From Ideonella aquatica (GTDB lineage: Bacteria > Pseudomonadota > Gammaproteobacteria > Burkholderiales > Burkholderiaceae_C), in the NCBI RefSeq assembly GCF_018069755.1, contig NZ_JAGQDE010000026.1, positions 1 through 56,153 on the forward strand: 56,153 nt of DNA. The letters run 5' to 3'. Shown piece after piece: positions 11,499 through 36,298 of the stretch (the stretch's first letter is position 1; each line of letters opens with the position of its first letter). The position numbers and the translations under genes are program-made. The notes below the pieces were generated by a model. It did no database searches. It was not told the origin of the DNA and worked only from the letters and a program-made list of their open reading frames with translations.

Positions 11499-11505
11499 CG
11501 CGGGC

Positions 11506-15337: not shown

Positions 15338-15373
15338 GGTCGGTGCGGTCCGTGAATGACCTGGACGAGGGCC

Positions 15374-15973: not shown

Positions 15974-16004
15974 GTTGAACGCTCGATGTCGATGCGGGCG
16001 CTGA

Positions 16005-16517: not shown

Positions 16518-16537
16518 TGCAGGGCGGGGCTCAGGTT

Positions 16538-16571: not shown

Positions 16572-16588
16572 CCGAACAGCCCGAAGGC

Positions 16589-17101: not shown

Positions 17102-17140
17102 TTGGTGTTTCTCCGCGGTTGAGTTAGCAAAAGGCGGTTA

Positions 17141-18640: not shown

Positions 18641-18687
18641 CGGTTGCTCCGGGTTCTGGGTGTTCGAAGGGGGTCGGGGTCAGACGC

Positions 18688-19188
18688 TCAGGCGTCGCCT
18701 TCGGGCTTGGGGTTGCTGCTCAGCGATTGCAGCAGCGCCGGGTCGTTGAGGACCTTGCCGATGAGCTCTTCGGCGCCGCCCTTGCCGTCCATGTAGGTGA
18801 CCAGGTTGGACAACTGCGCACGGGCCTCGAGGAGCTGCTTCAGGCCTTCGGTCTTGGCGGCGATCGCGGCCGGCGAGAAGTCGTCCATGCTCTCAAAGGT
18901 GAGGTCGACCGACAGGTTGCCTTCACCGGTCAGGGTGTTGGGCACGGTGAAGGCCGCGCGCGGCTTCATGGCCTTCATGCGGGTGTCGAAGTTGTCGACG
19001 TCGAACTCGAGGAACTTGCGGTCGGCCACCGGCGGCAGCGGGTCCTCGGGCTTGCCGGCCAGGTCGGCCATCACGCCCATCACGAAGGGCAGCTGAATCT
19101 TTTTCTGGGCGCCGTAGAGCTCGACGTCGTATTCGATCTGGACCCGAGGCGCCCGGTTGCGGGCGATGAATTTCTGGCTGCTTCCCAT
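18688..19188 (-). CDS. tssB: T6SS sheath protein TssB
   Basis: A 166-residue small sheath subunit with the expected 'SSQKFIARNRAPRVQIEYDVE', 'KIQLPFVMGVMADLAG', 'FLEFDVDNFDTRMKAMKPR' and 'LSVDLTFESMDDFSPAAIA' segments. TssB pairs with TssC in the sheath and in this T6SS lineage contacts TagJ. GGAG is present before the ATG. It is the second gene of the operon, 103 bases after tssA, a gap large enough for an internal promoter that I could not identify. Confidence 0.97.
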   Translation of the reverse strand: MGSSQKFIARNRAPRVQIEYDVELYGAQKKIQLPFVMGVMADLAGKPEDPLPPVADRKFLEFDVDNFDTRMKAMKPRAAFTVPNTLTGEGNLSVDLTFESMDDFSPAAIAAKTEGLKQLLEARAQLSNLVTYMDGKGGAEELIGKVLNDPALLQSLSSNPKPEGDA

Positions 19189-19291
19189 GTGTTGGCTCCG
19201 GGTTGAGAGAGAGTGGTGTCAGGGTCAGGGCGAGAGAGTGACAGTCGGTGCCGGGCGGCCTCTGCGGTGGGCGGCTGGCCCGCCGGAACCG

Positions 19292-20377
19292 TCAATGGTC
19301 GGACGTGATGCTATCGGGATCAACCCCCATGATTCGAGCAACTTCGTTGATCGCATCGGGCGCGAGATCGCGGACCAGCTGGAGGAAGTTCTTGTCGATC
19401 AGCCGCTCGGCGCGACGCAGCAGCAGCTGGGCCGGGTTGGTGGGCTCGTGGCGCTCAAGGTAGCTGCAGACCAGGCCGATGGCCTTGAGCGCATCCTCGC
19501 GCGACTCCACGCTCCAGGCGCCGCCGCCGCCACGGCGCGTGCGCGGGGCTTCGGCGCCGGCGTCACCGCTGCTGCTGTTGTCGCCGGTGTCCTCGGGGCT
19601 GCCAGCGCCGCTGTCGTCAAAGGACTCGGGCAGCAGGCCCTGCACGGCGTCGAGCATGCCGCGGATCGGCTTGAGATCGACCGTGCGCTCGAAACCGAAC
19701 CGGTCCTGCATCAAGCGCTGCAGCTCCTTGAGTTGCTCCAGCGCGTCGACCACCGCGCTGCGCAGCTGTGCGCCAGGCTCGGCCAGGTCGGGATCGGTCA
19801 GCACGCCGCGCACATGGGCCAGCGAGGGCGGCTCTTCGTCGGGCTTGGGGGCCAGGCGGTCCAGGGCCAGTTCAACATCGCGCACGCGCAGGCCAGCCAG
19901 CCGGCGGTCGACCAGCAGCGGGCATTCGCGGGTGTCGCCCAGCAGGCCATTGAACTGGGCCAGCGAGCTGACCGCGGTGATGCGGGCGAAGGGGTCGCCG
20001 TCGTCCGGGTCCAGCTCGGGATGGAGCCGGTCCCAGAACCGGTCCATCAGGCCGTGCAGCAGGCGCACGCCCGGGGCCAGGGCCGGCAGGCCGTGTTCAT
20101 AGAGCTGGGAGCGGATCCAGGGCACGACGATGCGCAGGTCGCGCGTGCGCTCCATCAGCGCCACGGCGCGCGACTCGACATCGCTCCAGACGGGGGGCTC
20201 GGCGGCGGAGAACTGGGTCTCGGGCTTGCCTTCAGCGGCTTGCGAGAACTCCAGGAAGTCGAGCTCGTACTCCATGTTCTCGCCACAGGGCGGGTCACCG
20301 AGCGGCTCAAGCCAGGCGTCGACCTGGCGGTCGATGCCGGCCACCGACGGGTGCTTGGGCGCAGCAGACTCACTCAT
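19292..20377 (-). CDS. tssA: T6SS protein TssA (ImpA family)
   Basis: A 361-residue protein. I start at the ATG at 20377 (GGAGGA seven bases upstream) rather than at an upstream in-frame codon that would add about 30 low-complexity residues. The N-terminal ImpA domain is clear ('WLEPLGDPPCGENMEYELDFLEF', 'VWSDVESRAVALMERTRDLRIVVPWI', 'GLMDRFWDRLHPELDPDDGDPFARI'). After a Gly/Ser/Asp-rich linker the C-terminal ~90 residues carry the 'SREDALKAIGLVCSYLERHEPTNPAQLLLRRAERLI' helix pair. TssA primes tail assembly at the baseplate. It is the first gene of the minus-strand operon. Confidence 0.94.
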   Translation of the reverse strand: MSESAAPKHPSVAGIDRQVDAWLEPLGDPPCGENMEYELDFLEFSQAAEGKPETQFSAAEPPVWSDVESRAVALMERTRDLRIVVPWIRSQLYEHGLPALAPGVRLLHGLMDRFWDRLHPELDPDDGDPFARITAVSSLAQFNGLLGDTRECPLLVDRRLAGLRVRDVELALDRLAPKPDEEPPSLAHVRGVLTDPDLAEPGAQLRSAVVDALEQLKELQRLMQDRFGFERTVDLKPIRGMLDAVQGLLPESFDDSGAGSPEDTGDNSSSGDAGAEAPRTRRGGGGAWSVESREDALKAIGLVCSYLERHEPTNPAQLLLRRAERLIDKNFLQLVRDLAPDAINEVARIMGVDPDSITSDH

Positions 20378-20706
20378 CCAGCCGTCCTCCGGGTGTCCGG
20401 GTGGTGCGGACCGGTTGTTGTGGCAATCACGACGGGCATGTGGCGTGCATCCATGGCGTCTCGCCAATCTATCACGCCGATGTGGGCACGCGCATTAGCG
20501 CTGGTTAGCATGCGATCAGGGTTGACCATAGGGGGACGGCAGGCCGTGGCGGAGGGCGAAATCAAGGAAGAATCCGGGCCTCGGTGGGCTCGGCGTGCAG
20601 CATCGCGCATTGTGTGCGGCGGGCCTGGCCCCAGACCCCCCCAGCCTGTGGTGGCCGCTGATCCGGCCGCAACGGCGCGTTGACCCTTCGCCCAGCCGCA
20701 TCCACC
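20378..20706. promoter_or_regulatory. Divergent promoter region tssA / tagF
   Basis: This 329-base gap separates two divergent T6SS genes. Apart from the GGAGGA site of tssA at its left end, the notable part is a locally AT-richer stretch around 20475-20535 with a TTAGCGC/TTAGCAT direct repeat, the likely place for promoters. I checked both strands for GG-N10-GC sigma-54 elements and saw no convincing one. Short frames across it look non-coding. Confidence 0.45.
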
Positions 20707-21372
20707 ATGTTCGAGACCCTCATCGCGCCGGGATGGTTTGGCAAATTGCCAACGGTCGGTGACTTTGTGTCACGGCGCCTGCCGCAGGATGTCATCGATT
20801 GGTGGGACAGCTGGTTGTCGCAAGGTCTGGCCGGCCTGCGCGAGCGCCATGCCGACCACTGGCAGGCCCAGTTCCTGGCGGCGCCGTCCTGGCGCTTCGT
20901 GCTGGCCCCCGGCGTGGCCCCGGGCAAGCTGGGCCAGCATGCCTGGGCGGGGGTGCTGATCCCGTCGGTGGACAGCGTCGGCCGCTACTTTCCCCTGACC
21001 CTGCTGGCGCCACTGTCGCGCTGGCCGCTGGCGTCGACGGCGGGCGAGTCGCTCGGGCTGTGGCTGGAACACCTGGAACAGGTGGCGGCCGACGCCCTGC
21101 ACGACGACTGGACCATCGAGCAACTGGAATCGGTGCTCGACGCCGACCCGCAGCGGCGGGCGCCGGTGGCGGTGCCCGATCTGGATCTGGCGCAAGATCG
21201 CGTCATTTTTCCGGTGGACGCTCTAGCATCCATGGGGGTGGCGGGGCGGCGCCTCTTCGCCGAACATCGCGCGGGTCGCTCGCTGTGGCAGCGTGGCGGC
21301 TTGACCGACGGGGCGTATCAGCTGGTCCAGGGCCTGCCCGACGCACAGACCCTGTTCGAGGCCTGGGCATGA
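20707..21372 (+). CDS. tagF: T6SS accessory/repressor protein TagF
   Basis: A 221-residue TagF-family protein. The first ~140 residues are the family domain: 'GWFGKLPTVGDFVSRRLPQDVIDWWDSWLSQGL' leads into 'WRFVLAPGV', 'GVLIPSVDSVGRYFPLTLLAPL'. I chose the ATG at 20707; a TTG 27 bases upstream is in frame but adds nothing recognisable. In Pseudomonas and Agrobacterium, TagF acts as a post-translational repressor of the T6SS, opposing the FHA-protein switch. It is divergent from tssA and only 76 bases before the TpsB gene on the same strand, so read-through into the two-partner operon is possible. Confidence 0.93.
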   Translation: MFETLIAPGWFGKLPTVGDFVSRRLPQDVIDWWDSWLSQGLAGLRERHADHWQAQFLAAPSWRFVLAPGVAPGKLGQHAWAGVLIPSVDSVGRYFPLTLLAPLSRWPLASTAGESLGLWLEHLEQVAADALHDDWTIEQLESVLDADPQRRAPVAVPDLDLAQDRVIFPVDALASMGVAGRRLFAEHRAGRSLWQRGGLTDGAYQLVQGLPDAQTLFEAWA

Positions 21373-21448: not shown

Positions 21449-23233
21449 ATGAACGCCCAGCACAGCGGCGCCCCCTGGCCCCGGCGGCGATTGCTCCGTC
21501 CCGTGATGACGGCCACCCTGCTGGCTCTGGCCCTGGGCACCGCCGCCCAGGCGCAGGAGGCCCCGCGCCCGGCCGATGGCGGCTTCGTCCCCACGCCGCC
21601 GTCGGTGCCAAGCCCCTCGTCCCTCGGCGAGGACGCCCGGCTGCCCCGCCCCGGCACGCCGGTGCTGGTTGACGGTGCCGTCGCCCCGGTCCAGCGCGAG
21701 CTGGGCAAGCGCGACGACAACCTGACCATCGACGTCAACGCCTACCGCGTGGCCGACGACGCCCCCGAGCCCCTGCGTCAGGCGCTGGCCACGATCACCG
21801 CGCCTTACGTGGGCAAGGGACGCAGCTACGAGGACCTGGTCAACGCCGCCAGCGACATCACCCGCTACCTGCAGCGCGACCTGGGCTATTACCTGGGCTA
21901 CGCCTACATCCCCGAGCAGGCGCCCAAGGACGGTGTGATCACGATCGGCGTGCTGGTCGGCAAGCTCGACCGCTACGTGCTGAACTGTGACGAGTCGAAG
22001 CCGCTGCCGGTGCGTTGCGACATCATCCAGTCCTACCTTGACCAGCTGCGCACCGGCGACGTGCTGACGGTGCAGGCGGTGGAGCGCGCGGTCTTCCTGA
22101 TCGGCGACTTGCGCGGCATCAACCTGCGCGCCGAGGTGAAGGAGGGCAGCCAGCCCGGCACCGCCATCCTCGAGTTCACGCCCAAGGCCGACCCGCAGTG
22201 GAACGGCAAGGTCGATGTCGATGCCAACGGCTCGCGCTTCATCGGCCGCGAGCGGTTGGGGGCCATGCTGTCCTATGACAGTCCCTTCGGCCGCGGCGAT
22301 GGCATCACGCTGTCCGGCCTGGGCTCGGTCAACGGGGGCATGCAGTTCGTGCTGCTGGGCTACAACACGCCGCTGTTTGGCAACGGCCTGAAGGTGGGCG
22401 CCTCGGTGTCGGGGTTGCGCTACCAGCTCAGCGAGGTCGAGTTCCCGCTGGGCCTGGAGGGCACGGGCATCACGGCCAATGCCTTCGCGCTGTACCCGTG
22501 GCTGCGCTCGCGCAACATCAACCTCTTTGCGCTGGGCTCGCTGGACCACAAGCAGTACGACGACTCCGCCGCGGGGGCCTCCACCGTCAAGCAGGCCGAC
22601 GTGCTGGGTCTGGGCATCACCGGCGACTTCCGCGACGCCGTGCTCGGCGGCGGTGTGAACACCTTCCAGGCCTCGACGAGCCTGGGCACGCTGCGCTTCC
22701 CGGATGGCCGGCCGCAGGGCCTGGACAGCGCGGCGCGCTTTGCCAAGATCAACCTGGCCTACACCCGGCTGCAGGCGCTGCCCTTGGAGCGCCTGATGGT
22801 CTACGGCTCGGTGCACGGCCAGTACGCGCTGCACAACCTGGACACCACCGAGCAGTTCCGCATCGGTGGCCCGGACGGCGTGCGTGCCTTCGCGCCCGGC
22901 GAGGGCACTGGCGACAGCGGCCTGGTCATCTCCGGCGAGCTGCGCTGGCTGCCGCCTGAATCGCTGTTCGACCGCTGGGCGCGTGAGCTGGTGTTCTCCG
23001 CCTTCGGTGATGCCGCCTATGTGCAGCTGCGCCACGACCCGAGCCAGATTCCCCGCGCAGCGAACTACCGCAACGATGCGCGCTATGCCGGCGCCGGCCT
23101 GTCGGTGGTGTGGGCGCGCCAGAAGGCCTACTCGATGCGCCTGAGCGTGGCCTGGAAGCTGCGCGGCACGGCCACAGGCGACACGCTGGAGCGTGACCCG
23201 CGCATCTACTTCCAGGCCAGCTACTACTTCTGA
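21449..23233 (+). CDS. Two-partner secretion outer-membrane transporter TpsB (ShlB/FhaC/HecB family)
   Basis: A 594-residue outer-membrane protein. Residues 1-~36 are a signal peptide ending AQAQ. Residues ~70-260 hold two POTRA-type domains ('LRQALATITAPYVGKGRSYEDLVNAASDITRYLQRDLGYYLGYAYIP', 'VQAVERAVFLIGDLRG'). The remainder is a 16-strand-type barrel that ends in the C-terminal Phe typical of outer-membrane proteins. The L6 loop that normally reads VRGY/F appears as VRAF in 'GPDGVRAFAPGEG'. A GAGGAG ribosome-binding site precedes the ATG. TpsB proteins export a cognate TpsA, here the next gene 67 bases downstream. Confidence 0.95.
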   Translation: MNAQHSGAPWPRRRLLRPVMTATLLALALGTAAQAQEAPRPADGGFVPTPPSVPSPSSLGEDARLPRPGTPVLVDGAVAPVQRELGKRDDNLTIDVNAYRVADDAPEPLRQALATITAPYVGKGRSYEDLVNAASDITRYLQRDLGYYLGYAYIPEQAPKDGVITIGVLVGKLDRYVLNCDESKPLPVRCDIIQSYLDQLRTGDVLTVQAVERAVFLIGDLRGINLRAEVKEGSQPGTAILEFTPKADPQWNGKVDVDANGSRFIGRERLGAMLSYDSPFGRGDGITLSGLGSVNGGMQFVLLGYNTPLFGNGLKVGASVSGLRYQLSEVEFPLGLEGTGITANAFALYPWLRSRNINLFALGSLDHKQYDDSAAGASTVKQADVLGLGITGDFRDAVLGGGVNTFQASTSLGTLRFPDGRPQGLDSAARFAKINLAYTRLQALPLERLMVYGSVHGQYALHNLDTTEQFRIGGPDGVRAFAPGEGTGDSGLVISGELRWLPPESLFDRWARELVFSAFGDAAYVQLRHDPSQIPRAANYRNDARYAGAGLSVVWARQKAYSMRLSVAWKLRGTATGDTLERDPRIYFQASYYF

Positions 23234-23300
23234 CGCCGCCCGGGCCAGCGTCCCTGATCGCCCGACCGCATTGCAGACCGACCTGCCGAGAGTTCCCACC

Positions 23301-26300
23301 ATGAAGCGCACTTCCGCCTCCGCCCTGAACCTGTCGCGCGCACCGCTGCCCGGATGGCGCCCGGTCGCCTGGGCTGCCTGCCTGATGTTCCTGGACACCG
23401 CCGCACTGGCGCTGCCGCAGGGCGCGCAGGTGATCACCGGCCAGGTGAGCGTCAAGCCGGTGGCGCCGGGCCAGCTGCTGGTGCAGCAAGGCAGCCAGAA
23501 GGCGATCGTCAACTGGGACCGCTTCTCGGTGGACGTGGGCGAGTGGCTGCGCATCCAGCAGCCCAACAGCAGCGCGGTGCTGCTCAACCGGGTGGTGGGC
23601 ATCGATGCCTCGGCGCTGATGGGCCAGATCAGCGCCAACGGCCGGGTCTTTCTGATCAACCCCAACGGCATCGTGTTCGGCAAGGGCTCGCGCGTGGATG
23701 CCGGCGGCTTCATGGCCACCACACTGGGCATGAGCGACGCCGACTTCATGGCCGGCCGCTACCTGCTGTCGGCGGGCAACGGCCAGCCCGGCAAGCTGCA
23801 GGCCGATGGCGTGATCGACGTGCATGGCGGCACGCTGGCGCTGGTCTCGCCCGAGCTGTCGGTGGGCGGGCGCCTGCAGGGCCAGCGCGTGGGCTTGGCG
23901 GCGGCGGAGCGGGTGCAGGTCGATGTCGAAGGCGACGGCCTGATCTTCTTCAATGTCGCCAACAGCAAGCTCGACGCCCGCCTGGACGTGCTGGGCCAGG
24001 TGCTGGCCCAGGGCGGCGGCACGGTGGACATGCGCGCCCAGGCCCGCGCCGGCTTTGCCGACACCGTGCTCAACATGAACGGCGTGGTGCAGGCGCGCTC
24101 GCTGGGCATGAAGGACGGGCAGGTGGTGATCGATGGCGGCAGCACCGGCCAGACCATTGTGCGTGGCCAGGTCGATGCGCGCGGGCTGGCCGCTGGCGAA
24201 CAAGGCGGTCAGGTGCGTGTGCTGGGCGACAAGGTGGGCCTGTTCGACCACAGCCTGATCGACGCCTCCGGCCAGGCGGGTGGCGGGCGGGTTCTGGTGG
24301 GGGGCAACTTCCTGGGGCAGGGCAGTGAGCGGCGTTCCTCACACACCGTGGTGGGCGAGGATGCGGTGATCCGCGCCAATGCGCTGGCGTCCGGCCAGGG
24401 CGGCGAGGTGGCGGTCTGGTCTGACAAGCGAACCGATTTTGCCGGGCACATTGAGGCCCGCGGCGGTGCCCAGGGGGGCGATGGCGGCCAGGTCGAGACC
24501 TCTGGCAAGGAGGTGCTGAACCTGCCGTCCGGTAGCGTCAACGTGAACGCCCAGCGTGGCCGTGGCGGCAGTTGGCTGTTGGACCCCAATGACATGGAGA
24601 TCAGCAACAGCCCCAGCAGTCACGTCAATGGCAGCTTCTCCACCACCGACGACAACGCGGTGGTGAATGCGGCGGCGCTGGAGGCGGCCCTCAGCAACAA
24701 CGCGAACATCACCCTCACGACTCGCAGCCAGGGCGCCAACACGCAGGGTGGCACCATCACGGTGAAGGCGGGTGTCACGGTCGACGCCTCCCTGACGGCC
24801 GGGCAGAGCGCGACATTGACGCTGCGCGCGCAGAAGGACATCGTGCTGGAGGCGAACAGCGGCATCAGCGCGGGCGCTGGGCAACTGACCCTCAACCTCC
24901 TGGCAGGCGTGGACGGCAATGGCACCGGCACGCCTGGCAACCGCGCCAGCGTCATCACGATGGCGTCCAACGCCAGCATCGACACCGGCGGCGGCGCGCT
25001 GCAGATGGTGGCCAGGGATGGCATCACCGTGTCCAACGTGACCAGCGGGGCCCTCACGCTCAACAGCGTGGCGGGGTCGATTGCCCAGCAGAATGCCACG
25101 GTGGTGTCGCTGGGTGGGGCGCTGAATGCCACCGCCGGCACCGGCCTGAGCTTGAACGGCAGCGGCAACCTGTTCGGATCCAACACGCTGACCCTCAGCA
25201 GCGGCGGCGATGCCACGCTGACCGCAGACAGTCTCAAGTTCGGCACCTCTGGCATCGGCGGCAAACTGGTGGCCACTGCCGAGACGGGCGGCATCACGCA
25301 GTCAGGCGTCATCACCACCGGGGCCAACGGCAGCGTCTTCACCACCAGTACCGACGATCAGGCCATCAACCTGGCGACCCAGACCAATGCGTTCGGCACC
25401 CGCACCGTCGCCTTGAACACCTCGGGTGCGGCGGGTGATGCGGCCATCCGGTCCGACAGCCTGAACCTGGCGGCCAGCACGGTCGGCGGCAAGCTCACGG
25501 CCACTGCTGCCACCGGTGGCATCACCCAGAGCGGCGTGATCTCGGTCGGTGCTGACGGCTCGAGCTTCACCGCGCTCACCGCCAATGCCGACATTGATCT
25601 GTCGACCCAGACCAACCAGTTTGGCGCCCACACCGTGGCGCTCAGCACCGGCGGTGCCACGGGCGATGCGGCCATCAGGTCCGACGAACTGAAGCTGGCC
25701 GCCAGCAGCATTGGCGGCAAGCTCACGGCCACGGCCACCACGGGCAACATCACGCAGACCGGTGCCATCATCCTGGGCGCCAACGGCTCCAGCTTCACGA
25801 CGCTGGCCAACGACGCCGACATCGACCTGTCGACCCAGGCCAACAACTTCGTCACCAACACAGTGTCGTTCAACACCGCTGGCAGCGGGGGCGATGCGGC
25901 CGTGCGGTCGACCAGTATCCGCTTCGGCACCAGCAACGTTGGCGGCAAGCTGACCGCGATCGCCGCCAGCGGCGGCATTGCACAGAGTGGCGTGATCACC
26001 ACCGGCGCCGACGGCAGCAGCTTCACGGCACTGACCGCCGATCAGGCGATCAACCTGTCGACACAGACCAATGCCTTTGGCACCCACACCGTGGCCTTCA
26101 GCACCGGCGGTGACGCAGGCGCCGTGTCGGTGAGGTCCGACAGCCTGAAGCTGGCCGCCAGCAGCATCGGCGGCAAGATCACGGCCACGGCCACCACCGG
26201 CGACATCACGCAGTCTGGCGCCATCATCCTGGGTGCTGATGGCTCCAGCTTCACGACGCTGGCCAACAATGCCGACATCGATCTGTCGACCCAGGCCAAC

Positions 26301-29300
26301 AATTTCGTCACCAACACGGTGTCGTTCAACACCACCGGCACCGGAGGGGATGCCGCGGTGAGGTCGACCAGCATCCGCTTTGACACCAGCGACGTCGGCG
26401 GCAAGCTGACGGCGGAGGCCTTCAGCGGCGGTATTGCGCAGAGCGGTGTGATCACCACCGGCGCCGACGGCAGCAGCTTCACGGCCCTGACTGCCGGACA
26501 GGCCATCAACCTGTCGACCCAGACCAATGCCTTCGGCACCCACTCGGTGGCCTTCAACACCAGTGGCGCCGCGGGCTTTGCGTCGGTCAAGTCCGACAGC
26601 CTGAAGCTGGCGGCCAGCACCGTGGGCGGCAAGCTGACCGCGGTCGCTGCCACCGGCAACATCACGCAGACCGGTGTGCTGACCGTGGGTGCCGATGGTT
26701 CGAGTTTTGTCACCCAGGGCAACAACGCGGACATTGACCTGTCCAGCCAGACCAACAGTTTTGGCGGCTTTGACGTCGCGCTGAGCACCACGGGCGCCAC
26801 GGGCGACGCCGCGATCAAGGCCGACACCCTGGTCTTTGCCGCCACGGATGTGGGCGGCAAGCTCACGGCCACGGCCACCAGCGGCAGCATCACCCAGACT
26901 GGGGTCATCTCCACCGGTGCCGATGGGTCGTCCTTCACGGCGTCGGCGGCCGGCCAGGGCATTGACCTGTCCAGTCAGGTCAATGCCTTCGGCACGCACA
27001 GCGTGGGCTTCAACGCCAACGGCGCAGACGTGGCGGTGCAATCTGACGCGCTGAACCTCGATGTCAGCGTGATCGGCGGCAAGATCACGGCCAGCACCAC
27101 CTCGGGCGGCATCACCCAGAGCGGTGCGGTCAGCACCGGGGTCGCCGGGTCGAGCTTCACGGTGTCATCCGGGCAGTCCATCAACCTGGGCAGTGCCGCC
27201 AACCAGCTGACCGGCGCTGATGTCGCCGGCAGCCTCAGCTTCAATGGCATGACCGACCTGCAGCTGCGCAGCGTGGGCGACGTGCAGATCGGTGCCACCA
27301 CGGTGAGCGGTCGCATCGTGCTGACCAGCGACACCGGCAGCATCACCCAGACCGGCGCGCTGGTGACCGGGGCAGACGGTTCGAGCTTCACCACGTCGGC
27401 GGCGGGTCAGACGATCGATCTGTCCAACGCTGGCAACAGCTTCGGCACCCACTCGGTGGCCCTGAACACCAGCGGCGCCACCGGTGATGCCACCATCGTG
27501 TCCGACAGCCTGAAGTTCGGCACCAGCGTGGTGGGCGGCAAGATCAACGCCACGGCGCAAACCGGTGGCATCAGCCAGTCCGGAGCTGTCAGCACTGGCG
27601 TCAGCGGCTCCAGCTTCACCGTGGCGGCGGGACAGACGATCGACCTGGGCAGCCAGGCCAATCAGCTGACCGGGGCCGGTGCGTCCGGCGACCTCAGCTT
27701 TGTCGGCATGTCCGACCTGCTGCTGCGCAACGTGGGCGATGTCCAGCTCGGGCCGACCTCGCTGGCTGGCCGCCTTGTGCTGGTCAGCGACAGCGGCAAC
27801 ATCAGCCAGACGGGGGCCTTCGTGGTCGGCGCCGACGGCTCGCGCTTCACGACCTCGGGCAGTGGCAAGACCATTGCACTGAACGATGCCGGGAACAGCT
27901 TTGGCACGCACACCGTGTCGATCAACACTTCCGGTGCGGCGGGCGATGCCAGCATCGTCTCCGACAGTCTGGTGTTGGCCGCCTCGAACCTTGGCGGCAA
28001 GCTGCAGGCCACCGCGCTCAGCGGTGGCATCGGGCAGACCGGGGCGATCACCACCGGGGCCGACGGCTCGCAGTTCACGGCCAGCGCGGCTGGTCAGTCG
28101 ATCGATCTGTCCACCTCGACCAACGCCTTCGGCAGTCACAGCGTTGGCTTCAGCACGGTGGACGCCGACGTGTCGGTCAAGTCCGATGCGCTGAAGTTCG
28201 CCGGCACGACGGTGGGCGGCAAGCTGACCGCGCTGGCCACCACCGGCGGCATCACCCAAAGCGGTGTGATCTCGGTGGGTGCCGACGGGTCGAGCTTCAC
28301 GACCCAGGGTGCCAATGCCGACATCGACCTGTCAACCCAGACCAACGCCTTTGGCGCCCACACCGTCGCCCTGAGCACCACTGGTGCCACGGGTGATGCG
28401 GCGATCAAGGCTGACGCCCTGGTCTTCGCCACCACCACGACCGGCGGCAAGCTGACTGCCACGGCGGACACCGGCAGCATCACCCAGACCGGGGTGATCA
28501 CCACCGGCGCCGACGGCTCGTCGTTCACCACCTCGACCGCGGGGCAGGCCATCGACCTGTCGACGCAGACCAATGCCTTCGGCACGCACAGCGTGGGCTT
28601 CAACACCACGTTGGCCGACGTGGCCGTCACCTCGGATGCGCTGAAGTTCGCCACCAGCACGGTGGGTGGCAAGCTGTTGGCCGTGGCCACCACCGGTGGC
28701 ATGACCCAGTCGGGGGTGGTCACCGTGGGTGCCGACGGCTCCAGCTTCACCACCCAGGCGGCAGACGCCAGCATCGACCTGGCCTCGCAGACCAACGTCT
28801 TCGGTGGCTTTGATGTCACGCTGTCGACCAATGGTTCGCTTGGCGATGCGGCGATCAGGGCCGACAGCCTGGTGTTCGCCACCAGCTCGGTGGGCGGCAA
28901 GCTGACCGCCACGGCGGCCACCGGCGGCATCAGCCAGACCGGCGTGTTGACCACTGGCGCCGACGGCTCGTCGTTCACCACCTCGACCGCGGGGCAGACC
29001 ATCGACCTGTCCAGCCAGACCAACCAGTTCGGCAGCCACAGTGTCGGTTTCAACACCACCGGCACCGGGGGCGACGTGGCGGTCACCGCCGATGGCCTCA
29101 AGCTGGCCGCCAGCAACGTGGGCGGGCGCATCACCGCGCTGGCCGCGACGGGAGGCATCAGCCAGAGCGGTGTCCTCACCACCGGCGCCGATGGCTCCAG
29201 CTTCACCACCCAAGCGGCGGGCCAGACCATCGACCTGGCATCCCAGACCAACGCCTTTGGCGGCCACACCGTGGCACTGTCGACCAACGGCAGCGGTGCC

Positions 29301-32300
29301 AACGCCGCGATCAGGTCCGACAGCCTGAAGCTGGCCGCTAGCAGCGTGGGGGGCTCACTGTCGGCCACCGCCACCACCGGCAACCTCACCCAGAGCGGCG
29401 TGATCACGGTGGGCGCCAACGGGTCGAGCTTCAGCACCCTGGGCGCCAACGCCGACATCGACCTGTCGACCCAGACCAACAGCTTCGGCGGCTTCACCGT
29501 CGCTTTGAACACCACCGGCGCCACCGGCGATGCGGCGGTCAAGGCTGATGAGTTGGTGTTGGCCACCACCACGATCGGCGGCAAGCTCACCGCGACGGCC
29601 GCCACCGGCGGCATCAGCCAGAGCGGCGTCATCACCACCGGCGCGGATGGTTCCTTGTTCAGCACCCTGACCGCGGGCCAGACGATCGATCTGTCGACCC
29701 AAACCAATGCCTTCGGCACCCACAGCGTCGGCTTCAGCACCTTGGGCAGCAGCGGCGATGTGGCGCTGCGCTCCAACAGCGTGCGGCTGGCGGCCAGCAC
29801 CGTGGGCGGCAAGCTGGTGGCCACTGCCACGACTGGGGGCATCACCCAGACCGGCGTGATCACCACCGGAGCCGATGGCTCGCAGTTCACCACCTTGGGC
29901 ACCAACCAGGACATCGACCTGTCGACCCAGACCAATGGTTTCGGGACCCACAGCGTCGGCTTGTCGACGACGGGCGCGACCGGTCAAGCGGCCATCAAGT
30001 CGGACAGCCTGCGTCTGGCCACCAGCAGCATCGGCGGCAACCTGACAGCCACGGCGGTCACTGGGGGCATCACCCAAAGCGGCGTGATCACCACAGGCAC
30101 CGATGGCAGTGCCTTCACCACACAGGCCAGCGGGCAGACGATCGATCTGTCGACGCAGACCAATGCGTTCGGCAACAACGGGGTCAGATTCACCACCAGC
30201 GGCAGCGGTGGCGATGTGGCGGTGCGCTCGAACAGCCTTGAACTCGGTACCAGCTCGGTGGGCGGCAAGCTCACCGCCACGGCCACCACCGGCAACATCA
30301 CCCAGACCGGCGTCCTCAGCGTGGGTGCCGACGGGTCGCAGTTCAGCACCCTGGGCGCCAACGCCGACATCGACCTGTCCACCCAGACCAATGCCTTCGG
30401 CACGCGGACCGTGCGCCTGGCCACCACCGGTGCCGGTGGCAACGCGGCCATCCGCTCCGACAGCCTGAAGTTCGCCGCCAGTTCGGTGGGCGGCAAGCTC
30501 ACGGCCACTGCCACTACGGGCAGCATCACCCAAACCGGGGCGATCACTGCAGGTGCCGATGGTTCGCAGTTCACCACGCTGGGCAGCAACCAGGACATTG
30601 ACCTGTCGACGCAGTCGAATGCGTTTGGCAACCGCACCGTGGGGCTGTCGACCAGCGGCGCCACCGGTGACGCGGCGATTCGCTCGGACAGCCTGCGTCT
30701 GGCCGCCAGCACCGTGGGCGGCAAGCTCGTGGCCACCGCGACCACGGGCAGCATCACCCAGACCGGCGCCGTCAGCATCGGTGCCGACGGTTCTCAGTTC
30801 AGCACCTTGGGCGCGAATCAGGACATCGACCTGTCCACGCAGGCCAATGTCCTGGGCGGGCGCGGCGTGTCGCTCAACACCACAGGCACTGGCGGCGACG
30901 CAGCGATCAGCGCCGACAGCCTGAAGTTCGCGACAACCACCGTGGGCGGCAAGATCACCGCCACCGCCACCAGCGGCAACATCAGCCAGACCGGCGTGAT
31001 CACTGCGGGTGCCGCCGGTTCGCGCTTTGCCACCAACACTGCAGGTCGCACGATCAACCTGTCCTCCCAGACCAATGCGTTGGGCAACCGGGCGGTGTCC
31101 TTTGTCACGGTCGGCAGCGGGGCCAACGTGGCCGTCAAGTCCGATGCGCTGCGGCTGGCCACCACCACCGTGGGCGGCAAGCTGACCGTCGAAGCGGTCA
31201 GCGGCAACATCGACCAGTCCGGTGTCGTGACCGTTGGTGCCGATGGCAACAGCTTCACCACGCATGCCGCCAACCAGACCATTAATCTGGCCGGCGCCAG
31301 CAACCGCTTCGGCAACCACACGGTGGCGCTGAACACCACCGGGGGCGCGGGCACCGCGTCGATCAGCACTGACCAGTTGGTGCTGGCCGCCAGCGACGTG
31401 CAGGGCAACCTCAACGTCACGGCCGGCAGCCTGTCGCAGACAGGCGATCTGTCGGTCACCGGCCTGGCCAACCTGAGCACCAGCGGCGGCGACATCACGC
31501 TGTCGCGCAGCGGCAACCAGCTGACCAGTGTGCGGGTCACCGCCCAGCGCGCCACCCTCAATGATGCCGATGGCTTCTCGCTGGGGGCCAGTACCGTGGG
31601 CCAGTCGCTGACACTGGCACCGTCCCTGGGCAGCACCGTGGCCATCGTGGGCACGGTCTCTGGTGCGGGCAAGCTGGTGCACAACGGCGCGGGCGACGTG
31701 ACCGTGACGGCGGCGCAGAGCTTCAGTGGAGGCACCGAGATCAACAACGGCCTGCTGGCCGCGGAAGGTGCTGCAGCGAGCCTGGGCAGCGGCGCCGTGC
31801 AGGTGGCGTCGTCAGCCAACCTGGACCTGCGCGCCGGAGCGACGCTGGCCAATGCTGTCACGATCCAGGGTGGCCGACTGCTGACCAGCGCTGGCGATGC
31901 CAGCCTCTCGGGCGATCTGAGCCTGAGTGCCGACAGCCGCGTCGAGGTGGCCAGCGGCAGCACGCTGACCCTGGGCGGCGTGGTGGGTGACGGCAGCGCC
32001 AGCGCCAGTCTCAGCAAGCTGGGTGCCGGCACGCTGGCACTCAGCGGGTCGACCCAGTTCGACGGTCCGTTCAACATCGACGCCGGCCTGGTGGACGTCA
32101 CCGCTGGCGCTCAGCTCAACCCGGTCGGTGCCGTCAACCTGGCGGCGCCGGCCACGCTGCGCCTGGCATCCGACCAGTCGGTGGGATCGTTGGCTGGCGC
32201 GGGCCGGGTGGACCTGGCGGGCCAGCGCTTGAGTGTGGGCGCCGACAACAGCAGCACCACCTTCAGTGGCCAGATCGACAGCAGCGGCAGCACCGGGGGC

Positions 32301-34850
32301 GGCCTGAGCAAGCTTGGCACGGGCACGCTGACCCTGTCGGGCAGCTCGACCTACGAAGGCGACACCCGCGTGCAGGCGGGCACCCTGACGCTGGCCTCGG
32401 CCAGCGCGCTGCTCCCGGCAGGCACGCTGGACGTGGCCAACGGCGCCACGCTCGATCTCAATGCCAATGCCTCGGCAGGTGCCTTGTCCGGTGCTGGTAC
32501 CGTACAGCTCGACAGCTTCGACTTGACGGTGGGTGCCAACAACGCCAGCACCAGCTTCAGCGGCACGATCACCGGTGGTTCCACCAGCCAGCTGGTCAAG
32601 CAGGGCACCGGGACCTGGACCGTGTCGGGTACCAACAGCTCGACCGGAGCGATCGAGGTGGCCTCGGGCACGCTGGCCTTGGGCAGCGCGACGGCGCTGG
32701 GCCTCATGGCCGCGACCGTGGACAGCGGCGCCACCCTGGCGCTGCAAACTGGCTCGACCGTTGGTTCACTGGCCGGTGCCGGCACGGTCGCGCTGGGCTC
32801 CAACACACTGCAGGCGGGCGCCAACCAGACCAGCACCACCTTCTCTGGCCAACTCACTGGCGATGCCGCTGCCTCGCTGGTCAAGACGGGCTCGGGCACG
32901 CTGACGCTGGATGGCGTGAGCACCCTGCCCGGCACGATCCGGGCTGCTGCTGGTGTGCTGAACCTGGCGGGTGGTACCGCCGTGGCCGATGCCGGAACGC
33001 TGGCCGTCGACAGCGGCGCCCGCGTCAATGTGCTATCCGGCGAGACCCTTGGCGGGCTGACCGGCGCGGGCGCGGTGACCCTGTCCGGCGCCACGCTGAC
33101 CACCGGCGCCAACGACGCCGCCGCCAGCTTCAGCGGTGCGATCAGCGGCAATGGCGGCCTGACCAAGGTGGGCAGTGGCACGCAGGTGCTGTCCGGCAAC
33201 AACAGCTACAGCGGCACCACCACGATCAGTGCAGGCACGCTGCAGGTGGGCGCGGGCGGCAGCACCGGCACGCTGGGCAGCGGCGCCGTGGTCAACCAGG
33301 CCACGCTGGCGGTCAACCGCAGCGATGCGCTCACGATCGCCAACGCCATCAGCGGCAATGGTCAGCTGGTGCTCAACCAAGGCACGCTGACGCTGTCGAG
33401 CGCCGCCAACAGCTACACCGGCGACACGCTGGTGCGTGGCGGCCAACTCAGGACCGCCGGTGCCGAGCGCCTGCCGGATGCCACCGACGTGGTCGTGTCG
33501 GCACCTGGCAGCCTGGTCCTGGGCGGCAGCGAGACCGTGGCCAGCGTCAACGCCGCCGGCCTGGTCACCGCCGCGGGCAACATCAGCACCGCGGGTGACC
33601 AGACCTACCAGGGCGGCCTGGTCCTCAACGGCAGCAGTGGCCAGACCCTGAGCGCCGACAGCCTGGTGGCCACCAGCGCCGCCAACGAGCTGGGCAGTCA
33701 CCCGGTGTCGATCCAGGCGCGGCAGGTGCAACTGGCCACCGACCAGAGCCTGGTGCTGGGCAACGTGACGCTGACCGAAGGTGGCAGCATCGAGGCCGCC
33801 AGCCTGCGCCTGAGCGGTGACATGACGCTGCAGGGCGGCCGCACCACGCTGAGCGCCACCGGCCTGCCCGACGCCACCCTGTCCGAGACCTATGGCGACG
33901 ACACGGCGCTGGTGCCCACGCTGAACAACGCCAAGCTGCGCACCGCGCAGAAGATGGTGGAACAGGACAGCGGCACGGCCATCACCGTGCAAACCGGTGC
34001 CACGCTGGATGTGGCGTCCACGCAGGGCGGCTCGATCTCGCTGGCCAGCGATGCCAACCGTTTCGACGGCGCGCTGTCGGTGCTCAGCGGTCCGAGCTTT
34101 GGCACCGCCTGGCTGCCGGGCGAGGCCACGGTTGACGGGCGCACCGTGGGGGTGCAGTCCTTCATCAATGTTGCCGGCTCCACCGTGCACCTGGGCGGCA
34201 GCGGCATCGAGGGCGACCTGGTGCAGGTTCGTGCTGACCAGCTCGCCACCCAAGGCAGTTCGGTCATCACCGCGCGCCTGCCCTATGACGACTTGATTCT
34301 CGGCACCCTGCGCTCCGCCCCCAGCCTGACGATGATCCTGGGTGACGGTGCCTACACGATCAGCCAGAGCTTTGGCGGCATCGGCGATGGCGCTTTGCGC
34401 GTGGCGGTGGGCACGCGGGCCACCGGCGGCCGCACCACCGGCCCCAATGCCGGCTTCCTGACGATTCGTCCCAAGGGGGGCGCGCGTGGCAGCACGGCGA
34501 TCTTCCTGCAGGGCGAGCAGGTCGTGCTGACCGATCCCACCGGCTACCGCCTGTTCCACGACGGCGCCGGTCAGCAGAACGAGATCCCGGTGATCTACAA
34601 CCAGCTGCTGCCCGAAACGCCGCAGGTTTCCGGCGCGCTGTCCTCGGTGGCTGCGGTGTCCGAAGAGGCCCGTCGCGAACGCTTCGAAGAAACGGTCCGC
34701 ACCGAGAACGTGTCGGTGCGCCTGCGCTCGGGCGTGATCGCCGAGGTGGGCCCGGGCAGCCCGGCGACCACCGGCACCCAGGGCGCCAAGCCGCCCGAGG
34801 TGTGCACGCCGGGCGCCGGCATGGCCTGCGAGGAGGCGCCGCGCAAATGA
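23301..34850 (+). CDS. Giant TpsA filamentous-haemagglutinin-type adhesin with tandem repeats
   Basis: A 3849-residue exported protein. The ATG at 23301 gives a signal peptide of ~37 residues (TAALA at the cleavage site); an upstream in-frame extension overlaps tpsB and lacks signal features. The TPS secretion domain covers ~38-300, with the hallmark 'INPNGIVFGKG' at 119-129. A beta-helical region follows, then 27 tandem ~76-residue repeats (residues ~652-2699). Next come several autotransporter-type beta-strand (PATR) repeats ('KLGTGTLTLSGSSTYEGDTRVQAGTL' type, residues ~2900-3400) and a C-terminal domain. The mature protein has only two cysteines, 3835 and 3843, beside the C-terminus. It is probably a long surface fibre for adhesion or biofilm. 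Its stop overlaps the caspase-like gene (ATGA). Confidence 0.95.
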   Translation: MKRTSASALNLSRAPLPGWRPVAWAACLMFLDTAALALPQGAQVITGQVSVKPVAPGQLLVQQGSQKAIVNWDRFSVDVGEWLRIQQPNSSAVLLNRVVGIDASALMGQISANGRVFLINPNGIVFGKGSRVDAGGFMATTLGMSDADFMAGRYLLSAGNGQPGKLQADGVIDVHGGTLALVSPELSVGGRLQGQRVGLAAAERVQVDVEGDGLIFFNVANSKLDARLDVLGQVLAQGGGTVDMRAQARAGFADTVLNMNGVVQARSLGMKDGQVVIDGGSTGQTIVRGQVDARGLAAGEQGGQVRVLGDKVGLFDHSLIDASGQAGGGRVLVGGNFLGQGSERRSSHTVVGEDAVIRANALASGQGGEVAVWSDKRTDFAGHIEARGGAQGGDGGQVETSGKEVLNLPSGSVNVNAQRGRGGSWLLDPNDMEISNSPSSHVNGSFSTTDDNAVVNAAALEAALSNNANITLTTRSQGANTQGGTITVKAGVTVDASLTAGQSATLTLRAQKDIVLEANSGISAGAGQLTLNLLAGVDGNGTGTPGNRASVITMASNASIDTGGGALQMVARDGITVSNVTSGALTLNSVAGSIAQQNATVVSLGGALNATAGTGLSLNGSGNLFGSNTLTLSSGGDATLTADSLKFGTSGIGGKLVATAETGGITQSGVITTGANGSVFTTSTDDQAINLATQTNAFGTRTVALNTSGAAGDAAIRSDSLNLAASTVGGKLTATAATGGITQSGVISVGADGSSFTALTANADIDLSTQTNQFGAHTVALSTGGATGDAAIRSDELKLAASSIGGKLTATATTGNITQTGAIILGANGSSFTTLANDADIDLSTQANNFVTNTVSFNTAGSGGDAAVRSTSIRFGTSNVGGKLTAIAASGGIAQSGVITTGADGSSFTALTADQAINLSTQTNAFGTHTVAFSTGGDAGAVSVRSDSLKLAASSIGGKITATATTGDITQSGAIILGADGSSFTTLANNADIDLSTQANNFVTNTVSFNTTGTGGDAAVRSTSIRFDTSDVGGKLTAEAFSGGIAQSGVITTGADGSSFTALTAGQAINLSTQTNAFGTHSVAFNTSGAAGFASVKSDSLKLAASTVGGKLTAVAATGNITQTGVLTVGADGSSFVTQGNNADIDLSSQTNSFGGFDVALSTTGATGDAAIKADTLVFAATDVGGKLTATATSGSITQTGVISTGADGSSFTASAAGQGIDLSSQVNAFGTHSVGFNANGADVAVQSDALNLDVSVIGGKITASTTSGGITQSGAVSTGVAGSSFTVSSGQSINLGSAANQLTGADVAGSLSFNGMTDLQLRSVGDVQIGATTVSGRIVLTSDTGSITQTGALVTGADGSSFTTSAAGQTIDLSNAGNSFGTHSVALNTSGATGDATIVSDSLKFGTSVVGGKINATAQTGGISQSGAVSTGVSGSSFTVAAGQTIDLGSQANQLTGAGASGDLSFVGMSDLLLRNVGDVQLGPTSLAGRLVLVSDSGNISQTGAFVVGADGSRFTTSGSGKTIALNDAGNSFGTHTVSINTSGAAGDASIVSDSLVLAASNLGGKLQATALSGGIGQTGAITTGADGSQFTASAAGQSIDLSTSTNAFGSHSVGFSTVDADVSVKSDALKFAGTTVGGKLTALATTGGITQSGVISVGADGSSFTTQGANADIDLSTQTNAFGAHTVALSTTGATGDAAIKADALVFATTTTGGKLTATADTGSITQTGVITTGADGSSFTTSTAGQAIDLSTQTNAFGTHSVGFNTTLADVAVTSDALKFATSTVGGKLLAVATTGGMTQSGVVTVGADGSSFTTQAADASIDLASQTNVFGGFDVTLSTNGSLGDAAIRADSLVFATSSVGGKLTATAATGGISQTGVLTTGADGSSFTTSTAGQTIDLSSQTNQFGSHSVGFNTTGTGGDVAVTADGLKLAASNVGGRITALAATGGISQSGVLTTGADGSSFTTQAAGQTIDLASQTNAFGGHTVALSTNGSGANAAIRSDSLKLAASSVGGSLSATATTGNLTQSGVITVGANGSSFSTLGANADIDLSTQTNSFGGFTVALNTTGATGDAAVKADELVLATTTIGGKLTATAATGGISQSGVITTGADGSLFSTLTAGQTIDLSTQTNAFGTHSVGFSTLGSSGDVALRSNSVRLAASTVGGKLVATATTGGITQTGVITTGADGSQFTTLGTNQDIDLSTQTNGFGTHSVGLSTTGATGQAAIKSDSLRLATSSIGGNLTATAVTGGITQSGVITTGTDGSAFTTQASGQTIDLSTQTNAFGNNGVRFTTSGSGGDVAVRSNSLELGTSSVGGKLTATATTGNITQTGVLSVGADGSQFSTLGANADIDLSTQTNAFGTRTVRLATTGAGGNAAIRSDSLKFAASSVGGKLTATATTGSITQTGAITAGADGSQFTTLGSNQDIDLSTQSNAFGNRTVGLSTSGATGDAAIRSDSLRLAASTVGGKLVATATTGSITQTGAVSIGADGSQFSTLGANQDIDLSTQANVLGGRGVSLNTTGTGGDAAISADSLKFATTTVGGKITATATSGNISQTGVITAGAAGSRFATNTAGRTINLSSQTNALGNRAVSFVTVGSGANVAVKSDALRLATTTVGGKLTVEAVSGNIDQSGVVTVGADGNSFTTHAANQTINLAGASNRFGNHTVALNTTGGAGTASISTDQLVLAASDVQGNLNVTAGSLSQTGDLSVTGLANLSTSGGDITLSRSGNQLTSVRVTAQRATLNDADGFSLGASTVGQSLTLAPSLGSTVAIVGTVSGAGKLVHNGAGDVTVTAAQSFSGGTEINNGLLAAEGAAASLGSGAVQVASSANLDLRAGATLANAVTIQGGRLLTSAGDASLSGDLSLSADSRVEVASGSTLTLGGVVGDGSASASLSKLGAGTLALSGSTQFDGPFNIDAGLVDVTAGAQLNPVGAVNLAAPATLRLASDQSVGSLAGAGRVDLAGQRLSVGADNSSTTFSGQIDSSGSTGGGLSKLGTGTLTLSGSSTYEGDTRVQAGTLTLASASALLPAGTLDVANGATLDLNANASAGALSGAGTVQLDSFDLTVGANNASTSFSGTITGGSTSQLVKQGTGTWTVSGTNSSTGAIEVASGTLALGSATALGLMAATVDSGATLALQTGSTVGSLAGAGTVALGSNTLQAGANQTSTTFSGQLTGDAAASLVKTGSGTLTLDGVSTLPGTIRAAAGVLNLAGGTAVADAGTLAVDSGARVNVLSGETLGGLTGAGAVTLSGATLTTGANDAAASFSGAISGNGGLTKVGSGTQVLSGNNSYSGTTTISAGTLQVGAGGSTGTLGSGAVVNQATLAVNRSDALTIANAISGNGQLVLNQGTLTLSSAANSYTGDTLVRGGQLRTAGAERLPDATDVVVSAPGSLVLGGSETVASVNAAGLVTAAGNISTAGDQTYQGGLVLNGSSGQTLSADSLVATSAANELGSHPVSIQARQVQLATDQSLVLGNVTLTEGGSIEAASLRLSGDMTLQGGRTTLSATGLPDATLSETYGDDTALVPTLNNAKLRTAQKMVEQDSGTAITVQTGATLDVASTQGGSISLASDANRFDGALSVLSGPSFGTAWLPGEATVDGRTVGVQSFINVAGSTVHLGGSGIEGDLVQVRADQLATQGSSVITARLPYDDLILGTLRSAPSLTMILGDGAYTISQSFGGIGDGALRVAVGTRATGGRTTGPNAGFLTIRPKGGARGSTAIFLQGEQVVLTDPTGYRLFHDGAGQQNEIPVIYNQLLPETPQVSGALSSVAAVSEEARRERFEETVRTENVSVRLRSGVIAEVGPGSPATTGTQGAKPPEVCTPGAGMACEEAPRK
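25254..31397 (+). repeat. 27 tandem ~228-base repeats inside the TpsA adhesin gene
   Basis: The unit begins '(V/I)GGKLTATA.TGxITQ(S/T)GVI', continues with 'GADGSSFT', 'IDLSTQTNAFG' and ends 'AAIRSDSLKLAAS'. Most copies are 76 residues; two are 74 (units starting 26850 and in the 27990 group) and two are 77 (starting 27072 and 27531). Starts I checked directly: 25482, 25710, 26394, 26622, 26850, 27072, 27303, 27531, 27762. A 28th degenerate copy begins at 31398. The frame is intact throughout, with no stop. Confidence 0.95.
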
Positions 34851-36298
34851 GCCAGCAGCCGGGTCAGCGCGGCCGCCGCCGTGCCTTGCGTCAGCTGGGT
34901 GGCGCGCTCGGTGCCTGGGCGTCTGGTGCGGCCGTGCCGGCCTGGGCGCAGGGCTACGGCCGCCGTCCAGCGGCCGCGCCTGCCGAGCCGACGGCCCCGG
35001 CCAGTGCGCCGGTTCAGTCGGTTCCTGCCTCGTCGGCCGGTGACGGCTCGGAGGTGCGCCTGGCGCTGCTGCTGGGCAACCGCCAGTACCCCGAACCCTT
35101 CGACCTGCCGCCCATCCCCAAGAACCTGCGCGATCTGAAGAGCGCACTGGAACACCGCGGCTTCCAGGTCAGCGATGCCCTCGACCGCGACCTGCCGTCC
35201 TCGCGCGCGGCGATCGATGACTTCGTCCGCCAGGCCCAGACCGCACCGCCCAACGCCACGCTGCTGTTCTATTTCTCGGGCCACGGCGTGCAGATCGAGT
35301 CGGCCAACCTGCTGCTGCCGGCGGGCCTCAGCCCGGCGCTGCAGGCCGATGCGATGCGGCGCGGCTCGCTGCAACTGCTGTCCGACATCGTCGGCCGCCT
35401 GCCCGAGCGGCCCCAGGGCCAGGTGATCGCGGTGGTCGATGCCTGCCGCACCACGCTCAAGCAGGCCACCGAGGACGCCGGTCTGAACCAGGTCGAGGCG
35501 CCGCCGGGCTGTGTGATCGCCTTCTCCACCGGCGCCGGCCGGCCGGCGATCGCGCCGGCGGTTGAAACGCAGAACACCTTCTACACCGGTTCGCTGGTGC
35601 GGCTGCTGGCCAGCACTTCCGATGAAACCTCGTTCAGCGAGTTGTTTCAGCTGGTCAAGCAGGACGTGCGCGAGACCATGCTCAAGCACCCGGTCGAGGC
35701 CATCCGCAAGCTGGCCCAGGACCCGTTCATCGCCGACAACAGCCGCTCGCGCGTGACCCTGGCGCCGCGCTCGGTGCGTGAGACCCGCGGCCCGCGCTTT
35801 GCCAGCCGCAACGAGGAAGCCGACTGGCAGCGCCTGCAGGAGGCCACCTGGCCGCCCGAGGTGCTGCAACTGGCCGACGCCTATCTGCGCGACCACCCCG
35901 ACAGCAAGCTGGCCGGTGCCGCCAAGGTGGCCCGCACCGGTTCAGACAATGCCGCGCGCTTGCTCAAGCGCAGCGATGTGCGCCTCTACAAGAGCGCCTT
36001 TCAGCTGCAGGACAGCCTGTCCGAAGACGAGCGCCGCGACATCGCCCGCGCCGGCATCGGCGACAAGGACGCGGCGGCTCGCATGGGCCGCCGTGCGATG
36101 GCCAAGGGCGGTACCGGCCTGCCCCGCTACGAGGGCTGGCTGCAGTACGCGTCGGCGCTGGGCAACGGCATTGCCGCCTACGAGCTGGCGCTGCACTACC
36201 GACGCCAGGAACAGCCGGTGATGGCCTCGCGCTACGAGGCCATCGCACGCGAGCTGGGCTACAACCCGCCGGTGTCGCTGGACAACGTGCGCAAGTAG
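34847..36298 (+). CDS. Exported caspase-like protein (peptidase C14) coupled to the adhesin gene
   Basis: A 483-residue protein starting at the ATG at 34847, overlapping the tpsA stop by ATGA. The N-terminus 'GRRRALRQLGG' followed by a hydrophobic run to 'AWAQG' (cleavage near residue 34) looks like a Tat-type signal, so export is expected. After a Pro/Ala linker, residues ~70-300 form a caspase-fold domain: 'LALLLGNRQY', 'LRDLKSALEHRGFQV', 'LLFYFSGHGVQ' with catalytic His146, and 'VIAVVDACRTT' with catalytic Cys200. The C-terminal ~150 residues are helical with a Sel1-like 'ALGNGIAAYELALHYRR' segment. Bacterial C14 proteases often cleave after Arg or Lys. Translational coupling to TpsA suggests it matures, releases or senses the adhesin; that role is inference. 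Confidence 0.92.
   Translation: MSQQPGQRGRRRALRQLGGALGAWASGAAVPAWAQGYGRRPAAAPAEPTAPASAPVQSVPASSAGDGSEVRLALLLGNRQYPEPFDLPPIPKNLRDLKSALEHRGFQVSDALDRDLPSSRAAIDDFVRQAQTAPPNATLLFYFSGHGVQIESANLLLPAGLSPALQADAMRRGSLQLLSDIVGRLPERPQGQVIAVVDACRTTLKQATEDAGLNQVEAPPGCVIAFSTGAGRPAIAPAVETQNTFYTGSLVRLLASTSDETSFSELFQLVKQDVRETMLKHPVEAIRKLAQDPFIADNSRSRVTLAPRSVRETRGPRFASRNEEADWQRLQEATWPPEVLQLADAYLRDHPDSKLAGAAKVARTGSDNAARLLKRSDVRLYKSAFQLQDSLSEDERRDIARAGIGDKDAAARMGRRAMAKGGTGLPRYEGWLQYASALGNGIAAYELALHYRRQEQPVMASRYEAIARELGYNPPVSLDNVRK

Follow-up and report, generated by a model that had tools for sequence, protein, structure and literature searches.

The 56,153-nucleotide contig NZ_JAGQDE010000026.1 of Ideonella aquatica (assembly GCF_018069755.1), hereafter the window, carries an operon that encodes an outer-membrane transporter (TpsB), a giant surface fibre (TpsA) and a caspase-like protease of peptidase family C14 (hereafter C14). 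We found that tpsB-tpsA-C14 is a conserved unit, and we consider, with a probability of about 0.6, that anchored TpsA is released when C14 cleaves a short linker close to its C-terminus, i.e., that the operon encodes a retention-and-release switch. In the proposed mechanism, TpsB would export TpsA, a very long repeat fibre, of which the last ~50 residues would stay in the periplasm; there, a disulfide loop of the terminal cysteines may jam the TpsB pore and hold the fibre on the cell, as the precedent of HMW1/HxuA and the cysteine pattern suggest. C14, with a predicted caspase fold, would be exported by the twin-arginine translocation (Tat) pathway to the same compartment, as its leader suggests, and would cut the flexible RTEN...GVIAEVG linker that separates the cysteine anchor from the final folded domain; the cut would most probably fall on or close to the Arg of RTEN (TpsA residue 3800). 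Such cleavage would release the whole fibre in a manner like that of CdrA/LapG, here by a caspase that is encoded in the operon of the adhesin itself. That the protease frees its operon partner is suggested by its strict pairing with TpsA, its frequent but dispensable pairing with the type VI secretion system (T6SS), the anchor-like tail of TpsA and one natural case of loss. A preliminary description of this locus, made from the sequence alone, had offered trimming, anchoring, release or triggered shedding of the fibre as possible roles of C14; release is the best supported of these, because the tail is anchor-like and the conserved, predicted flexible linker is mostly lost in a genome (G554) that lacks C14.

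Open reading frames (ORFs) and domain searches confirmed what that description had read from the letters, namely TpsB, a 3849-residue TpsA and C14 on one strand, with an ATGA overlap between the last two genes (tpsA stop TGA at 34848-34850, C14 ATG at 34847-34849); the three genes, all on the plus strand, form one operon (Table 1). Because TpsA has an N-terminal two-partner secretion (TPS) domain (TIGR01901, 65.7 bits; cut-off, 29.1) and is encoded together with a TpsB that has POTRA and barrel domains, the pair is a two-partner (type Vb) secretion system. The only Pfam matches in TpsA at E <= 0.01 were 28 DUF5649 stretches and 5 PATR stretches, and the gene that follows is C14; a contact-dependent growth inhibition system (CdiA/CdiI) was rejected, as neither a C-terminal toxin domain nor an immunity gene was seen.

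The three genes are inherited together. A scan of genome contigs with C14 gave 23 loci, 22 with at least 50% identity in the best segment and one, of Limnobacter humi, with 44%; the closest named relative found was Ideonella alba, with a C14 that was 92% identical. By BLAST, the TpsA tail ended just before C14 in 20 of the 23 loci; two contigs (L045 and L052) begin inside or just 5' of C14, and no TpsA tail precedes C14 in L. humi (L058). Two samples drawn without regard to the query were also searched: 300 genomes of the order and 299 of the family. Some C14 match (E 1e-5) occurred in 42 genomes of the order sample, near-full-length C14 (at least 48% identity) only in G000, G058 and G003, and the TpsA tail in the same three. 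In the family sample, for which at most 5 C14 candidates and 15 tail candidates of each genome were scored, 18 genomes had the TpsA tail, the same 18 had a TpsB of the clade (E <= 1e-80), and full-length C14 (at least 501 bits) was present in 17 of these 18 and in no other genome, the next match scoring 198 bits. Weaker C14 matches bring the count to 63 of 299 (E <= 1e-20); these additional matches are to other caspases or to the isolated C-terminal domain. In 16 of the 17 family genomes with C14, its gene immediately follows tpsA on the same strand, so that the conservation in relatives on which the preliminary description had made its idea depend is observed; in the seventeenth (G583), both genes are at contig ends. 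Co-inheritance of the triad extends over eleven genera of the family sample, and the co-occurrence of tail, TpsB and C14 excludes a chance neighbourhood of C14 and tpsA. Sample and scan counts are not additive because genomes overlap (five family genomes share TpsB coordinates with scan loci), and gene limits in relatives come from a longest-ORF script that misplaced some ORFs. The search of the window's genome gave no second full-length C14, and no C14 was found in 72,556 plasmid records.

An AlphaFold2 model of the last 350 TpsA residues shows how the tail may be organized. A predicted beta domain, with ten-residue means of the predicted local distance difference test (pLDDT) of 84-98, ends at approximately fragment residue 270 and is followed by a lower-confidence helix (residues 275-310) and by stretches with pLDDT < 50 (residues 304-322 and 324-332). 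RTEN corresponds to fragment residues 301-304, in the end part of the doubtful helix, and its Arg to codon 34698-34700; the motif continues into predicted disorder before the cysteines at 336 and 344. Across 22 loci, the last ~110 residues of TpsA have in common RTENVxxRLRxGVIxEVG and two near-terminal cysteines, and in 21 of 22 TpsA ORFs, a large share of them partial at contig ends, no cysteine other than this pair lies outside the leader region; the TpsA of L054 has three more. Among 36 C14-positive genomes with a visible tail, 34 have RTENV and 2 have RTENA, as counted by BLAST and a regular expression, with the rows that the expression missed read by eye. The cysteine pair is also present in the tails of L. 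humi, G003 and G554, and in G610 (L099 5954-17977) a 33-residue Ala/Pro-rich extension follows it. Attention had previously been drawn to the basic strings 'SEEARRERFEE' and 'APRK' at the TpsA C-terminus; both are present in the window, the former cluster is partly conserved, and the terminal 'APRK', which only L037 among the relatives shares, was rejected as a cleavage site. Judged from the aligned tails, the informative element is instead RTEN...EVG together with the cysteine pair. This tail resembles the periplasmic anchor of HMW1/HxuA, so that disulfide formation and periplasmic retention may be expected.

That C14 constitutively matures or clears every TpsA, by trimming or by removal of stalled chains, and does not act as a regulated switch, is unlikely in our judgment. 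The overlapping genes in one operon suggest coupled synthesis of enzyme and substrate, and the C-terminal prodomain of FhaB is degraded stepwise by the periplasmic proteases DegP and CtpA in the account that PMC8263021 gives of it. TpsA, however, has a single short conserved linker in place of a long prodomain, and there would be little reason to conserve a cysteine pair distal to the proposed site if it were lost from every molecule.

Support for the linker as the target of C14 comes from G554, which has kept a TpsB (48% identical) and a tail of the clade and yielded no C14 match at E 1e-20; the sequence that follows tpsA is resolved there, and an alpha/beta hydrolase gene and a TauE gene occupy the place of C14. 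Of 47 tail columns conserved at >= 95% in the 27 of 36 C14-linked tails used, 27 of the 29 that lie outside residues 296-324 are unchanged in G554, against 3 of the 18 within this segment (Fisher 1.2e-7); G554 retains the cysteine pair and loses most of the RTEN...EVG motif. This pattern bears on a further alternative, that RTEN...EVG contacts TpsB or anchors the fibre and that C14 cuts something else or binds without proteolysis. The Asn that C14 has in place of MALT1 Asp365 (see below) and the position of RTEN at the end of a low-confidence helix, which could contact the POTRA domains, are compatible with such a role, but the motif was mostly lost in G554 although a clade TpsB was kept, and the catalytic His and Cys are invariant in 26 sequences; we regard this alternative as quite improbable.

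Several observations weigh against release by linker cleavage. The segment 296-324 was picked after the changes had been seen, and its columns are not independent, as one deletion removes several. Loss of the linker concerns the single genome G554, in which the R and T of RTEN are retained, and its C14-bearing relative G473 keeps RTENV with a looser linker (RLH, QLG). RTEN could instead serve anchoring. In L. humi and G003, C14 directly follows the T6SS ATPase gene tssH, not tpsA, and their tails have RTENV and lack RLR. G003 has an intact-looking C14 although the only tail found in it lies in a 592-aa ORF devoid of a TPS domain and the search for a clade TpsB gave none; these features speak rather against a pure TPS role of C14. 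The preference of C14 for Arg is uncertain because an invariant Asn93 stands at the position of MALT1 Asp365, and a stand-alone homologue of the C14 helical domain is unexplained.

The assignment of the protease to peptidase family C14 is based on a caspase domain (PF00656) above the curated cut-off (70.2 bits; cut-off, 21.4), a His-Cys dyad and a predicted caspase fold. The catalytic residues His146 and Cys200, named in the preliminary description, were invariant in 26 aligned sequences. Its claim of a Tat-like signal likewise stood: the N-terminus (MSQQPGQRGRRRALRQLGGALGAWASGAAVPAWA, followed by Q) appears Tat-signal-like by eye, and every aligned row that reaches the leader has the twin Arg, so that C14 is probably Tat-exported. 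By sequence and fold, the closest solved structure is that of the MALT1 paracaspase, a human protein that acts as a cytoplasmic signalling protease. The equivalent of MALT1 Asp462 is kept in C14 as D198, whereas Asp365, which we take to be part of the S1 site, aligns with Asn93, invariant in the family; hence, the Arg/Lys specificity that had been presumed for C14 cannot be assumed. A homologue of the C-terminal helical domain with a leader-like N-terminus is encoded elsewhere in the window's genome, and such helical domains together with their stand-alone homologues are first candidates for the signal that activates C14. A small protein that has a leader-like N-terminus and otherwise consists of this domain alone was seen at L033 10017-10700 (minus strand; ~24.0-24.7 kb of G000 contig C25); its gene adjoins a Ser/Thr kinase gene with DUF4384, and icmF and a fused tssB-tssC gene are within a few kb. 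Judged by the spacing in G300, C25 may adjoin the window contig. No conserved neighbours of the stand-alone protein were found among 7 homologues (the window's genome and 6 loci, in 3 of which the protein was recovered).

A T6SS cluster next to the operon, missed in the preliminary description, lies divergent from the strand that bears tagF-tpsB-tpsA-C14. Among 22 other TpsB loci, 13 have a divergent tssA on the 5' side at a gap of ~150 to 370 bp; the nearest recognised T6SS gene is tssB in 2, tssH occurs within ~7 kb in 2 and a divergent tssC within ~7 kb in 1, and 4 have no recognised T6SS gene in the stretch fetched. TssC is encoded at most 5 kb from TpsB in 11 of the 17 C14-positive family genomes, a figure for which no family-wide T6SS rate serves as comparison; it lies 14-49 kb away in 3 (of which one has a fused tssBC gene at 0.8 kb), on a different contig in 1, and was not found in G333 and G610, which have the full triad. 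In the genomes of the C14 scan and order sample, TssC matches were obtained in 24 of 25, the exception being G003. The TPS genes of L. humi follow T6SS FHA and PP2C genes, and the triad of G058 stands near general metabolism and efflux genes, 45 kb from TssC. The operon is thus usually beside a T6SS, often divergent from tssA; this pairing is frequent but dispensable, whereas the pairing with TpsA is strict.

C14 might, on this account, be primarily a regulator of the T6SS island, e.g., a component of envelope sensing near the kinase/TagF pathway, with a secondary position after tpsA. Its place after tssH in L. humi and G003, the proximity of TssC in the 11 genomes above, the location of the helical-domain homologue of the window's genome close to a Ser/Thr kinase gene and to T6SS genes, and the persistence of C14 without TpsB in G003 would all suit such a function. 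Nevertheless, full-length C14 never occurred without a TpsA tail in the same genome in the two samples, the tested direct neighbours of the stand-alone homologues in three other genomes included no T6SS gene, and in G333 and G610, where no T6SS sheath gene was detected, the triad is complete, which favours a function of C14 for the fibre and weakens the idea of a T6SS gene that merely follows tpsA. We consider a primary T6SS function improbable. G003 was dropped as an example of T6SS loss with TPS-C14 retention, as the TPS domain and the clade TpsB are missing there.

Release of the fibre by C14 most closely resembles the CdrA/LapG mechanism. Pseudomonas aeruginosa CdrA is described as a TPS adhesin of which the periplasmic C-terminal tail is cut by periplasmic LapG, with release of the fibre (PMC5422565, PMC4694147); the preliminary view that no characterised system has this form therefore needs correction, as a very similar one is known. 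In both cases, a periplasmic cysteine protease would cut the periplasmic tail of a TPS adhesin, location and site being predicted for C14. The pair is set apart from the Lap system because protease family, operon linkage and genomic setting differ: LapG is transglutaminase-like and controlled by c-di-GMP, whereas C14 has a predicted caspase fold, lies in the adhesin operon and is usually near a T6SS. The operon protease matched PF00656 only (E <= 0.01) and is not of the LapG family; no search of the genome was aimed at LapG or LapD. The third gene of the HMW operon encodes a glycosyltransferase. In HMW1/HxuA, a periplasmic C-terminal disulfide loop locks TpsA in the TpsB pore (PMC5422565), and a terminal cysteine pair is likewise present here; the relevant passages of PMC5422565 name no dedicated operon protease for HMW1/HxuA and place sphB1 outside the fha locus. 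C-terminal proteolysis by DegP, CtpA and SphB1 also controls fibre release of Bordetella FhaB, which differs in its large prodomain and its multiple proteases, to none of which the sections of PMC8263021 concerned apply the term caspase. A protease that processes toxins of type V secretion systems is HINT, not a caspase, according to the part of PMC3482391 that deals with it. Vibrio fischeri TasL, like TpsA a giant adhesion protein encoded in or at a T6SS cluster, brings about the contact needed for killing and can decide which cells are killed; it is a putative lipoprotein, not a TPS protein, and the relevant text of PMC9040878 mentions no protease partner. CHAT/caspase-type genes close to TPS loci had been mentioned in the preliminary description. 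Among the top-ranked titles of the literature searches, the best 12 to 20 of up to 656 papers each, none points to a caspase paired with a TPS system or to a TPS operon within a T6SS island, which is weak evidence of absence.

Table 1. Features of the operon and its surroundings in the window.
Feature	Position	Strand	Details
tpsB	21449..23233	+	outer-membrane transporter, 594 aa; POTRA_2 and ShlB above Pfam cut-offs
tpsA	23301..34850	+	giant surface fibre, 3849 aa from ATG; TIGR01901, DUF5649, PATR
TpsA repeat region	25098..31535 (limits approximate)	+	DUF5649, mostly 76-residue period
TpsA ordered C-terminal beta domain	33798..34607	+	residues 1-270 of folded 350-aa fragment; AlphaFold2 model mdacbcfc8744e
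Conserved linker RF..xVRTENVxxRLRxGVIAEVG..AT, proposed C14 site	34683..34769	+	
Terminal cysteines Cys3835 and Cys3843, putative disulfide anchor	34803..34829	+	
C14 caspase-like protease gene	34847..36298	+	483 aa; PF00656
C14 Tat-like signal peptide (GRRRALRQ ... AWA, then Q)	34847..34948	+	judged by eye
C14 caspase domain, residues 66-312	35042..35782	+	His146 codon 35282, Cys200 codon 35444
C14 C-terminal helical domain, residues 321-478	35807..36280	+	predicted model
tagF (T6SS-associated)	20680..21372	+	PF09867, TIGR03373; 76 bp 5' of tpsB
T6SS cluster	7684..20467	-	tssH, tssG, tssF, impE-like, weakly Hcp-like genes, tssC, tssB, tssA

The T6SS surroundings vary in other respects. Between tssC and the impE-like gene of the window lie four tandem genes (14765-17101, minus strand), one of which matches TssD/Hcp below the cut-off; the others are weakly similar to each other, and number and similarity vary among relatives. 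A fused VipA-VipB (tssB-tssC) gene, belonging to a second, divergent T6SS-like cluster, was seen at L033 15021-16823 (minus strand) and also at L101 2805-5357, and in many of these genomes, TssC is matched a second time, more weakly, at 10-36 kb from the canonical gene. In G333, which is without TssC, an OmpA-family gene just 5' of tpsB (L100 3523-4224) is 60% identical to one in the T6SS region of C25. G003, probably Limnobacter-like, has a tagF-like gene beside the ORF with the RTEN/cysteine tail (L063 10000-12781), and a truncated tssH ORF adjoins C14 on the same contig; no TssC was found in it, and the arrangement resembles a decaying island.

The T6SS setting suggests when release of the fibre matters. 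Judged by location, a likely use of the switch would be to hold and then release neighbours during contact-dependent killing. In its fullest form, a grapple-and-release device for type VI killing, in which the fibre would hold prey during T6SS firing and an exported paracaspase, tuned via its helical domain by the envelope-sensing kinase/TagF arm, would cut the RTEN linker, the idea is a tentative and rather doubtful one; if true, a bacterial caspase would have a single dedicated substrate in nature, encoded in the same operon. To our knowledge, few natural substrates of bacterial caspase homologues have been described. For C14, a probable substrate is at hand, the predicted site spans a few residues, one case of loss is known from nature, and co-inheritance covers eleven genera; hence, the question of cleavage is testable with one peptide and one mutant. 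The operon may thus represent a release-controlled giant adhesin tied to a T6SS.

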